From Chroococcidiopsidaceae cyanobacterium CP_BM_RX_35 (GTDB taxonomy: Bacteria; Cyanobacteriota; Cyanobacteriia; Cyanobacteriales; Chroococcidiopsidaceae), in NCBI GenBank assembly GCA_019242465.1, contig JAFAVL010000663.1, forward strand, positions 1 to 14,267: a stretch of DNA of 14,267 nucleotides, in the 5' to 3' direction. Position numbers and translations under genes: made by a program. Below the pieces are notes generated by a model. The model saw only the letters and a program-made list of their open reading frames with translations, was not told where the DNA came from and did not search any database. Numbering within the stretch: the first letter of the stretch is position 1; each line of letters starts with the position of its first letter. This document shows, piece after piece, positions 9,643-11,949 of this stretch.

Positions 9643-11235
9643 GTGGCTAACATTCTCAAACAGCCATGCGATGAAGGGGTAATTCGGTCTTCTCCCTGTA
9701 CTGAACCCTGCTCAAGAAATAGCGGACGGTGGGTGTTGGCAGCAACTATCCTTGGCTCCAGCATGGCTGTAATTGACGGCACTGTGGTTAACGTAGCGTT
9801 GCCAGTGTTGCAAGCAGAGTTGCAGGCAACGGTAGCTGATGTGCAGTGGATTGTTGAATCTTATGCGTTGTTTCTTGCTGCCTTAATTTTGGTTGGTGGG
9901 TCGTTAGGCGATCGCTTCGGGCGGCGGCGGATCTTTGCCTATGGTGTAGCTATTTTTGCCGGAGCTTCAGTCTGGTGCGGACTCTCAACTTCTGTCAATC
10001 AACTAATTGTAGCGCGGGCGGTGCAGGGGATAGGTGGTGCGTTGCTGGTGCCAGGCAGTCTGGCAATCATTAGTGCCTCTTTCAGTGGCGAGCAGCGCGG
10101 ACAGGCAATTGGCACCTGGTCGGGCTGGAGCGCTATCACTTCGGCTTTAGGTCCAGTGCTAGGTGGCTGGTTGGTGGAACATGTCTCTTGGCGCTCCGTC
10201 TTTTTCCTGAACATTCCACTAGCAGCTGTTGTCCTAGGCATCGCCTTTTGGCGGGTACCAGAGAGCCGCAATGTCGAGACGGCGAGGCTGGATTGGTGGG
10301 GGGCGATGCTAGCAACAGTTGGGCTAGGAGCGAGCGTGTATGCTCTTATCTCATCGTCAAGCCTGGGCTTGAGCAATCCAGTCGTCCTCAGCTTCCTCGT
10401 GGTCGGTGTCTTGATCTTGGGTGCGTTTGTTTTTGTAGAAGCTCATACTCGATTCCCAATGATGCCGCTATCCCTGTTTCAGTCGCGGACCTTTAGTGGG
10501 GCAAATTTACTGACACTGCTGTTGTACTCAGGTCTGAGCGGGGTCTTATTTTTTTTGCCCTTCAATTTAATTCAAGTCCAGGGTTATTCGGCTACAGCTG
10601 CTGGTGCCGCTTTGCTACCTTTTATCCTAATTATGTTTCTGCTCTCCCGTTGGTCTGGCGGATTGGTCGGTCGCTACGGTGCGAAGCTACCACTAGTTGT
10701 CGGTCCCACGATTGCCGCTGTGGGGTTTGCTTTGTTTGCGGTGCCAGGGATTAGTGGCAGTTATTGGACAACCTTTTTCCCCGCAGTGGTGGTGCTGGGT
10801 GTAGGCATGGCAATTAGCGTTGCACCGCTGACGACAACTGTCATGGGCGCAGTCAAAACTAGCCAAGCTGGCATCGCTTCAGGAATTAACAATGCTGTAG
10901 CTCGGACAGCTGGGTTGTTGTCAATTGCAGTACTGAGTCTTGTTGTCTTGGCTGCCTTTGATCGTGGTCTTAATCGGCGACTAGCAATGCTGAAGATTCC
11001 ACCTGAAGTGCAGCACCTACTTGAACCACAGCGAAATAAGCTAGCTGGAACAGAGGTACCACCTGGTCTTAGTCCCGAGATCAATGCAGTTATTCACCGC
11101 GTGATCGCCGAGGCTTTTGTAGACGGTTTCCGTTTGGTAATGCTTGTAGCTGTTGGGCTAGCGCTATTAAGTGCATTTGTGGCTTTGGTGATGATTAGAG
11201 AGAAATCACGCCAGGCAAAAAAACACTTTACATAA
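9643..11235 (+). CDS. MFS drug exporter, DHA2 (EmrB/QacA) family, 14 TM
   Basis: A 530-residue inner-membrane proton-coupled exporter. DHA2 landmarks are clear: IDGTVVNVALP with Asp45 in TM1, motif A GGSLGDRFGRRRIF (85-98), the Arg-containing VARAVQGIGGALLVPGS (123-139), and motif C in TM5 (GTWSGWSAITSALGPVLGG, 157-175). Fourteen hydrophobic segments can be counted. A cytoplasmic N-terminal stretch of about 28 residues has three cysteines (Cys9, Cys19, Cys23) before TM1. The start is a GTG at 9643, 9 bases after the zinc-finger stop. The ATG at 9641 lies in another frame and soon meets a stop. Later in-frame starts would cut into TM1. No Shine-Dalgarno is seen, so translational coupling is likely. 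It is the last gene of the five-gene run. The substrate is unknown. Confidence 0.92.
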   Translation: MANILKQPCDEGVIRSSPCTEPCSRNSGRWVLAATILGSSMAVIDGTVVNVALPVLQAELQATVADVQWIVESYALFLAALILVGGSLGDRFGRRRIFAYGVAIFAGASVWCGLSTSVNQLIVARAVQGIGGALLVPGSLAIISASFSGEQRGQAIGTWSGWSAITSALGPVLGGWLVEHVSWRSVFFLNIPLAAVVLGIAFWRVPESRNVETARLDWWGAMLATVGLGASVYALISSSSLGLSNPVVLSFLVVGVLILGAFVFVEAHTRFPMMPLSLFQSRTFSGANLLTLLLYSGLSGVLFFLPFNLIQVQGYSATAAGAALLPFILIMFLLSRWSGGLVGRYGAKLPLVVGPTIAAVGFALFAVPGISGSYWTTFFPAVVVLGVGMAISVAPLTTTVMGAVKTSQAGIASGINNAVARTAGLLSIAVLSLVVLAAFDRGLNRRLAMLKIPPEVQHLLEPQRNKLAGTEVPPGLSPEINAVIHRVIAEAFVDGFRLVMLVAVGLALLSAFVALVMIREKSRQAKKHFT

Positions 11236-11257: not shown

Positions 11258-11298
11258 GTTACATTGGATACAAGTAATTTTTAAATCTTACTTAAGTT
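11258..11298 (+). promoter_or_regulatory. Possible NtcA-type promoter upstream of the riboswitch
   Basis: The site at 11258-11271 reads GTTACATTGGATAC. It fits GT-N10-AC and differs by one base from the NtcA consensus GTA-N8-TAC. A TAAGTT hexamer (TAN3T-type -10) starts 21 bases after it at 11293, close to class II NtcA spacing. A competing -10, TACAAT at 11339-11344, would start transcription almost inside the aptamer. The site makes sense beside a nitrogen-sensing riboswitch but is only a pattern match. Confidence 0.3.
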
Positions 11299-11345
11299 AG
11301 AGCAATTTTTAGAAAGCCGCCACATACAATTACAGATATACAATA

Positions 11346-11436
11346 AATCGTTCATCTCTTGCTTAAAACTTGCAGTATTTGGCTAAGTTACAGTCGGAGA
11401 CGGAAGTAAGGAGTTATCCTGAAGGAACGCGCCTCA
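11346..11436 (+). promoter_or_regulatory. Glutamine riboswitch (glnA / Downstream-peptide RNA family)
   Basis: The conserved blocks of this cyanobacterial aptamer are visible in order: CGTTCATC (11349-11356), a variable hairpin arm, GACGGAAGTAAGGA (11399-11412), a short AGGA/TCCT hairpin, then GAAGGAACGCGCC (11421-11433). P1 forms by pairing CGTTC (11349-11353) with GAACG (11425-11429). The family binds L-glutamine and controls nitrogen-assimilation genes or short peptide genes. Bases 11430-11436 (CGCCTCA) are the exact complement of TGAGGCG at 11455-11461, which contains the GAGG Shine-Dalgarno of the next ORF. Alternative pairing could therefore hide or expose that site. Recognition rests on the conserved blocks, not on a covariance search. 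Confidence 0.85.
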
Positions 11437-11467
11437 CTTAACCACCATGACTTTTGAGGCGAAAGCT

Positions 11468-11638
11468 ATGAAACACTTTGACACAAAATCTGGCACCACC
11501 CGCATAAAGATGGTGGCACAGCATCAGACAGAAAGCATACCTATGTCTAGGCACCCTCAAGCAGTGGTGCCTAGGTCTGTGCCTAGCTGCTTAGGTGGGG
11601 CTACGATGGCAATTGCTTCAAATATTTATTGGGACTGA
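11468..11638 (+). CDS. Small protein under the glutamine riboswitch, unrecognised
   Basis: A 56-residue ORF starts MKHFDTKSGTTRIKMVAQHQ and ends with ASNIYWD. I do not recognise the family; it does not resemble the glutamine synthetase inactivating factors IF7/IF17 as I remember them. It is basic in its N-terminal half, with a mid-section rich in Pro, Arg and Val and no signal peptide or TM helix. The ATG at 11468 is preferred over the in-frame ATG at 11447 because GAGG lies 8 bases before it and that site can pair with the riboswitch edge. Its coding region contains a perfect 9-bp inverted repeat (11547-11574). Short ORFs after Downstream-peptide riboswitches are a known arrangement in cyanobacteria, which supports translation here. 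The frame could still be a remnant. Confidence 0.55.
   Translation: MKHFDTKSGTTRIKMVAQHQTESIPMSRHPQAVVPRSVPSCLGGATMAIASNIYWD
11547..11574 (+). repeat. Perfect 9-bp inverted repeat inside the small ORF
   Basis: CTAGGCACC at 11547-11555 pairs with GGTGCCTAG at 11566-11574 across a 10-base loop. A third partial copy, GTGCCTAGCTGC, follows directly at 11580. A stem this stable inside a 56-codon reading frame may be a structured RNA element or a translation-slowing hairpin. Confidence 0.6.
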
Positions 11639-11678: not shown

Positions 11679-11703
11679 TCAGCCTGTTTAACAGACAGGC
11701 TGA
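11679..11703 (+). terminator. Hairpin after the riboswitch-controlled ORF, possible terminator
   Basis: TCAGCCTGT (11679-11687) and ACAGGCTGA (11695-11703) form a perfect 9-bp stem with a 7-base loop, 40 bases after the stop of the small ORF. No T-tract follows, so it would be a weak or T-less terminator, or a 3'-end stabilising structure. Confidence 0.4.
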
Positions 11704-11787: not shown

Positions 11788-11949
11788 ATGAATACCACCA
11801 AGGTCAAAAAGCCCTCACAAAATCAGCTACTTGAGACATCAAGTAATGACAATCAGAGCAGTTTTGACTTCGAGCTTTGGGTCAAGGCAGTTAGACCTCA
11901 GTTACTGGCTGCAATCCAGAGGCATTCAGGTGATCGGATCACCGATTAA
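11788..11949 (+). CDS. Small hypothetical protein, 53 residues
   Basis: The ORF begins MNTTKVKKPSQNQLLETSSN and ends RHSGDRITD. The first 25 residues are polar and likely disordered. The second half (FDFELWVKAVRPQLLAAIQR) looks like an amphipathic helix with alternating aromatic, acidic and basic residues. AGGAG at 11771-11775 lies 12 bases before the ATG, a little far, with a GAG nearer. A strong intrinsic terminator follows 19 bases after the stop. A start, a Shine-Dalgarno, a helix-forming sequence and a dedicated terminator together make it a credible real gene. It has no signal peptide or known motif, and I do not recognise its family. A short palindrome (GGTGATC-G-GATCACC) overlaps its last codons. 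Confidence 0.55.
   Translation: MNTTKVKKPSQNQLLETSSNDNQSSFDFELWVKAVRPQLLAAIQRHSGDRITD

Follow-up and report, generated by a model that had tools for sequence, protein, structure and literature searches.

A type-1 glutamine riboswitch before a probably truncated small-protein gene in a Chroococcidiopsidaceae cyanobacterium

What does a glutamine riboswitch control when the reading frame behind it resembles none of the established targets? The question is raised by a stretch of 14,267 nucleotides of cyanobacterial DNA (hereafter the window), for which an earlier note, made from the letters alone, had described a glutamine riboswitch whose 3' edge pairs with the ribosome site of an unrecognised ORF of 56 residues. 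The literature base consisted of passages from PMC6316151, PMC7760959, PMC8092223, PMC8400943, PMC2864571, PMC11477058, PMC11288750 and PMC12475003. In the review passages, DUF4278 proteins are the main glutamine-riboswitch target in sequenced cyanobacteria and the ORFs after RF01704 encode DUF4278 proteins, and the ORFs after this type-2 aptamer are given as 17-100 residues long there and in passages of Weinberg 2010.

Aptamer and ribosome-site stem

A covariance search of the whole window with Rfam returned the type-1 glutamine riboswitch RF01739 at 52.5 bits (gathering score 35, E 2.6e-9), the sole other match in the window being a tRNA. The glutamine riboswitch of the earlier note is borne out by this match and can be assigned to type 1. 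The Downstream-peptide (type-2, RF01704) model, which the note had also named and which in marine picocyanobacteria likewise marks a glutamine aptamer before short ORFs, is absent from the window's matches at the gathering score. RF01739 is matched over the whole aptamer, the host is cyanobacterial (a Chroococcidiopsidaceae MAG is 87.6% identical in DNA over 4.9 kb) and the element lies in a 5' leader, the ORF beginning 34 nt past the aptamer end. The riboswitch itself is ordinary, of a class already known. The features of this region are as follows.

11258..11271, + strand: NtcA-like box GTTACATTGGATAC, 5/6 of GTA-N8-TAC; GTTTCATAGTATAC stands at roughly this position in the sister locus L001
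11347..11433, + strand: type-1 glutamine riboswitch aptamer (RF01739), Rfam covariance match, model 1-53 complete
11430..11436, + strand: anti-Shine-Dalgarno strand CGCCTCA, read from the sequence; C11430 is the putative linchpin base (C60 of the solved aptamer)
11455..11461, + strand: TGAGGCG, 3' strand of the stem with the GAGG ribosome site at 11456-11459; identical in L001

P1 of the aptamer is formed by 11349-11353 (CGTTC) and 11425-11429 (GAACG), and the aptamer block GACGGAAGTA was read from the sequence at 11399-11408. In P3 both strands differ between the window and L001, an A-U pair being replaced by G-C (AGG/CCU to GGG/CCC). The 7-bp complement CGCCTCA/TGAGGCG and the ATG at 11468, eight bases after GAGG, were found at exactly the coordinates given earlier, and the stem does cover the ribosome site, since GAGG falls within its 3' strand.

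The notion that this stem is peculiar to the site had to be given up upon comparison with other members of the class. A total of 171 sources (the window, L081-L121 and L126-L254) gave 168 distinct riboswitches, with no regular-expression match in L090; 167 platforms were usable after L140, in which no start was found, had been dropped and the starts of L089, L206, L218 and L219 had been set manually. This sample was drawn from the listed, higher-scoring portion of the RF01739 matches of the class and from smaller genome sets, and is biased to well-scoring riboswitches. It contains 148 unique platforms, among which 116 have the common 5' arm CGCCTC and 32 a deviating arm. A stem scoring at least 15 (about six pairs) precedes the start codon in 100 of the 116 common-arm platforms, a score that shuffled 3' regions reach in 0.9% of cases, and we therefore rejected the anti-Shine-Dalgarno strand as a site-specific feature. 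A helix of at least five pairs was present in 138/167 platforms, compared with 39.9% when the arms were shuffled, and the stem normally precedes the start with GAGG at the usual spacing. Of the deviating arms, 10 form a better pairing with the 3' strand of their own platform than the common arm would, and 22 a worse one; compensated variants include CGCTTCA/TGGAGCG, CGCTTCT/AGAAGCG, CGCCTTA/AAGGC and CACCTCA/GAGGTG, and the compensation is clear in the CGCTTCA/TGGAGCG group. A pair count on a MAFFT alignment speaks against this picture, since 65.3% of the cells were paired (shuffles: mean 64.2%, maximum 65.5%), although its 30 double changes exceeded the shuffle maximum of 26; we did not rely on this count, having judged the 3' arm of the alignment to be out of register. 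The stem is real and general to the class, and its covariation is modest.

How aptamer and stem may communicate depends on where they meet. The last base of P1 is G11429 and the first of the stem C11430; the minimum-energy fold holds both together, so mutual exclusion of the two lacks support from the fold, and the fold of 11340-11480 is no more stable than shuffles (z -0.31). The earlier proposal that the ligand-bound aptamer claims the GCGCC segment finds no support in the form given: P1 and stem co-fold, and their overlap would amount to at most one base, C11430. A review passage describes how glutamine binding brings the junction base G23 into P1, where it pairs with C60, the linchpin, and C60 would correspond here to C11430, the first anti-Shine-Dalgarno base. 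At low glutamine the stem 11430-11436/11455-11461 would hide the ribosome site; with glutamine bound, P1 would be stabilised and the junction G would pair with C11430, by which the stem would be weakened and translation could start at 11468. Glutamine switching at this locus and its ON direction are proposed by analogy with gifB of Synechocystis 6803, a small-protein gene whose 5' leader likewise holds RF01739; passages of PMC6316151 and PMC11288750 report that this class of riboswitch mediates the activation of IF17 translation by glutamine. The base directly after P1 is C in 167/167 usable platforms, and one invariant base may thus be contested by the aptamer and the ribosome-site stem throughout the class.

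Of the 166 unique regions upstream of an aptamer, 69.9% hold a perfect GTA-N8-TAC within 60 nt, compared with 1.5% of shuffles, a frequency that matches the NtcA control of gif genes reported in review passages. The MFS transporter gene at 9643-11235, which lies before the riboswitch, is open in the window; its counterpart in L001 (7701-8357, - strand) is broken: a stop separates two pieces of the ORF, and there is a large gap inside the gene.

The reading frame and its sister locus

The ORF and the features behind it are listed below.

11468..11638, + strand: 56-codon ORF, probably the N-terminal part of a small-protein gene truncated at its C-terminal end (sequence and L001 comparison)
11620..11621, + strand: putative deletion junction, 146 nt of sister sequence missing (L001 alignment, columns 432-577; place ambiguous by a few bases)
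11680..11702, + strand: 8-bp inverted repeat CAGCCTGT/ACAGGCTG, candidate transcript end with no T run

The ORF ends with the stop codon 11636-11638. As the earlier note had it, the ORF is unrecognised: a search of 5.8 billion proteins with its 56 residues as query yielded no relative, even with the limit at E 10, and no Pfam family was returned at E 1. Genome contigs were then scanned with the neighbouring SpoU methyltransferase, and the best 80 of 244 loci were kept, among which the exact aptamer pattern occurred in L001 alone. L001, from the Chroococcidiopsidaceae MAG CP_BM_ER_R8_30, was also the best locus, with the identity over 4.9 kb given above and 84.8% over 2.7 kb. P1, the junction, CGCCTCA, TGAGGCG and the ATG are all kept between the two, as is the inverted repeat (AGCCTGT/ACAGGCT); a 1-nt indel lies immediately 5' of the ATG, and indels of 3 nt and 9 nt lie within the ORF.

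The comparison bears on the start codon, since the ORF list begins the frame at an upstream in-frame ATG, 11447, giving 63 codons. This ATG is part of the stem's loop; were it used, the 3' strand of the stem would be coding and the ribosome site would not be hidden, which we consider highly improbable. Though the frame from 11447 is open in the window, and the source of the metagenome protein P0002 (described below) annotates the same long start, the equivalent ATG of L001 is out of frame and meets a stop after seven codons, which favours 11468; the listed L001 ORF uses the later ATG, no purine-rich site precedes 11447, and in the class the stem usually lies upstream of the start with GAGG normally spaced. 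ATG 11447 is thus an unlikely start.

L001 preserves the frame over roughly 50 codons from the ATG at 11468, and to this extent the conservation in relatives on which the earlier note had staked its ORF was found; the length was not kept, the L001 ORF having 94 codons. The difference is accounted for by one gap: the 146 nt missing here encode in L001 the hydrophobic segment, the C-terminal end and the stop codon. The window's ORF closes with five codons and a stop read from the former 3' UTR. The 56-residue product, which had been taken for the product of the gene, is thus most likely what was left over after a deletion, and the sequence comparison makes it improbable that the ORF is an intact gene. 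Our preferred reading, to which we give a probability of about 0.7, is that a type-1 ON riboswitch stands before the gene of a small one-helix protein whose helix and C-terminus have been lost here by deletion. The gap would then have arisen in the window's line, and the truncated product would be non-functional.

Two other explanations of the short frame were weighed against this reading. The gap might be an error of assembly or sequencing, the organism possessing the full small protein, as could be argued from the longer forms with alike ends in both close relatives, L001 and P0002; the flanks of the window and L001 align on both sides across one single gap, and an artefact of this kind appears improbable to us. 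The product might also be a functional, soluble, recently shortened regulator that is made at plentiful glutamine, as the earlier note supposed. Its aptamer, stem and start are intact, and 31/48 aligned residues are identical to the sister's, with dN/dS over the 48 shared codons at 0.31 by NG86; YN00 gives 0.74, and with these two values neither constraint nor decay is proven. This explanation has against it the origin of the last five codons and stop in the former 3' UTR, the loss of 6 of the 11 invariant columns of the A3 alignment (L53, M56, V59, A64, G65 and K69) with the missing part, and the NtcA-like box nearest the aptamer (within 60 nt), which is 4/6 in the window compared with 5/6 in L001. 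We regard it as unlikely. Under the deletion reading, the weak box and the truncation are hints of a decaying gene.

Beyond the inverted repeat, a second small ORF (11788-11949, + strand, 53 codons) is 75% identical in the sister (NG86 dN 0.112, dS 0.847); it was matched in one of 19 genomes of the family (G001) and gave no significant Pfam or NCBIfam match.

The intact protein family

The 94-residue protein of L001, used as a query, finds itself and one metagenome protein of 103 residues (P0002, 77% identical), whose first residues MTFEAR would fit the same TGAGGCG strand. A four-member profile searched against 5.8 billion proteins returned ten proteins, two of them from MAG CP_BM_RX_35, all aligning as one new family. 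Within the 19 genomes of the sister's taxonomic family, the sister genome G001 gave three matches and G002 a weak one (E 0.07), and no other genome was matched. Across the class (388 genomes) 8 genomes were matched: the three strong places are all in G001, and the weak matches L256-L262 occupy one place each in seven genomes (E 3e-4 to 0.0099), the aptamer-end pattern being seen once, at L257. A search across the order (388 genomes) added distant relatives in G682 (E 1.1e-6) and G709 (2.2e-5), and a plasmid search with P0010 gave no match. RF01739 has no match in genomes G682 and G709, and Rfam gave none at the distant relatives L293/L294 or at L125, a third paralogue in G001 that lacks a riboswitch; riboswitch control is therefore not universal in the family. 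L293 and L294 lie tail to tail with a gene that by inspection is M56-peptidase-like and that adjoins what, by the same criterion, is a BlaI-like repressor. At L125 the 89-codon ORF (2473-2742, + strand) has a leader-like ELSQQALDEICGG and a repetitive tail, and we presume a resemblance to a double-glycine peptide precursor.

The intact protein belongs, by sequence, to a small unnamed family and not to the inhibitors of glutamine synthetase; the earlier note, too, had found the product unlike these. Membership of the ORF in IF7, IF17 or DUF4278 was rejected: neither it nor its intact relatives match DUF4278 (0/11 A4 members; three unrelated sub-threshold Pfam families appear), no protein so named was found by the profile search, and Pfam and NCBIfam gave no family for A4 members beyond sub-threshold matches. 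As a control, the ORF of L098 matches PF14105 (DUF4278) at 1.3e-15. Two IF7-like control ORFs had no Pfam family either; IF7-like similarity was judged by sequence search and inspection, the profile search among the 5.8 billion proteins having returned the ten proteins of the new family.

The Kyte-Doolittle maximum is 2.22 for the L001 protein and 2.24 for P0002, compared with 1.14 for the window's product. Among control ORFs, a value of at least 1.9 is reached by 8/123 of the DUF4278 class (mostly in Ala/Val/Pro-rich stretches), 0/17 IF7-like and 7/24 others, and this control weakens the step to the membrane because the index is not specific. AlphaFold2 with 11 sequences predicted a single helix at 44-63 with low confidence (mean pLDDT 55.8). 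From hydrophobicity and this model, the intact protein may be located in the membrane.

Targets of the riboswitch in other genomes

RF01739 was present in 10/12 chosen genomes, in 17/19 genomes of the sister's family and in 172/291 of the class. G001 has six copies, the other 18 family genomes 0-3, and up to seven occur (G038, G085) among the matches listed; six is thus high, not unique. The ORFs after the 168 distinct riboswitches sampled were classified by regular expression, not by Pfam, as 123 DUF4278-like, 17 IF7-like and 26 other, with 2 riboswitches lacking an ORF. The common stem, with its GAGG upstream of the ATG, is shared by the window and the DUF4278-type loci. The sister genome also has small-protein genes of the established kind after its glutamine riboswitches, namely ORFs of 43 and 47 residues that are IF7-like by inspection (L086, L097) and a DUF4278 protein (L098). 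The other three of its six riboswitches stand before genes for small proteins that each have one hydrophobic segment: L091, the orthologue of the window's gene (94 residues); L099, a paralogue of L091 (83 residues, E 3e-12); and L096 (76 residues), which has no evident kin. A second family was found in G038, G085, G187 and G306, in which six riboswitches (L155, L157, L159, L161, L277 and L285) precede micro-proteins of 38-53 residues with hydrophobicity 2.23-2.57 and a shared P-x-L-x-W motif, none of the four tested matching Pfam.

By inspection, two further types of small protein follow riboswitches, MNYxDLKLI (102-105 aa) and MNVQWQRYKELELVPD (78-81 aa), along with proteins of 140-145 aa that look like a fusion of the two; such types or fusions occur at L089, L094, L102, L106, L112, L114, L188, L191, L245, L246 and L250. 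At C2:1066802-1067466 of G038 and at C360:12605-13269 of G085, three riboswitches form a tandem array with a spacing of about 300 nt, and each is followed by a 56-codon DUF4278-like ORF of its own.

The difference between this locus and gifB, as far as the passages on gifB describe it, lies in the target: here it is not a DUF4278 protein or IF17 but a protein with a single hydrophobic segment, whose gene is truncated in the window. Judged by sequence, this locus and those related to it suggest that the riboswitch has small membrane-like proteins as another, recurrent kind of target. This is possibly news: the titles and abstract openings of the literature found mention no membrane protein as a glutamine-riboswitch target, and Klahn 2018 may list such proteins. 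We suggest tentatively, as an idea more likely wrong than right, that these riboswitches also control sets of single-helix membrane proteins that have arisen at least twice (the families of 83-103 and of 38-53 residues) and that act as membrane brakes at plentiful nitrogen, for example on carriers of ammonium, nitrate or amino acids, the window representing a brake that is being lost through deletion of its membrane part. The possible importance of the locus would lie in the regulon of the switch, not in the switch itself, and glutamine-gated membrane micro-proteins, if true, would be an added membrane output of nitrogen sensing.
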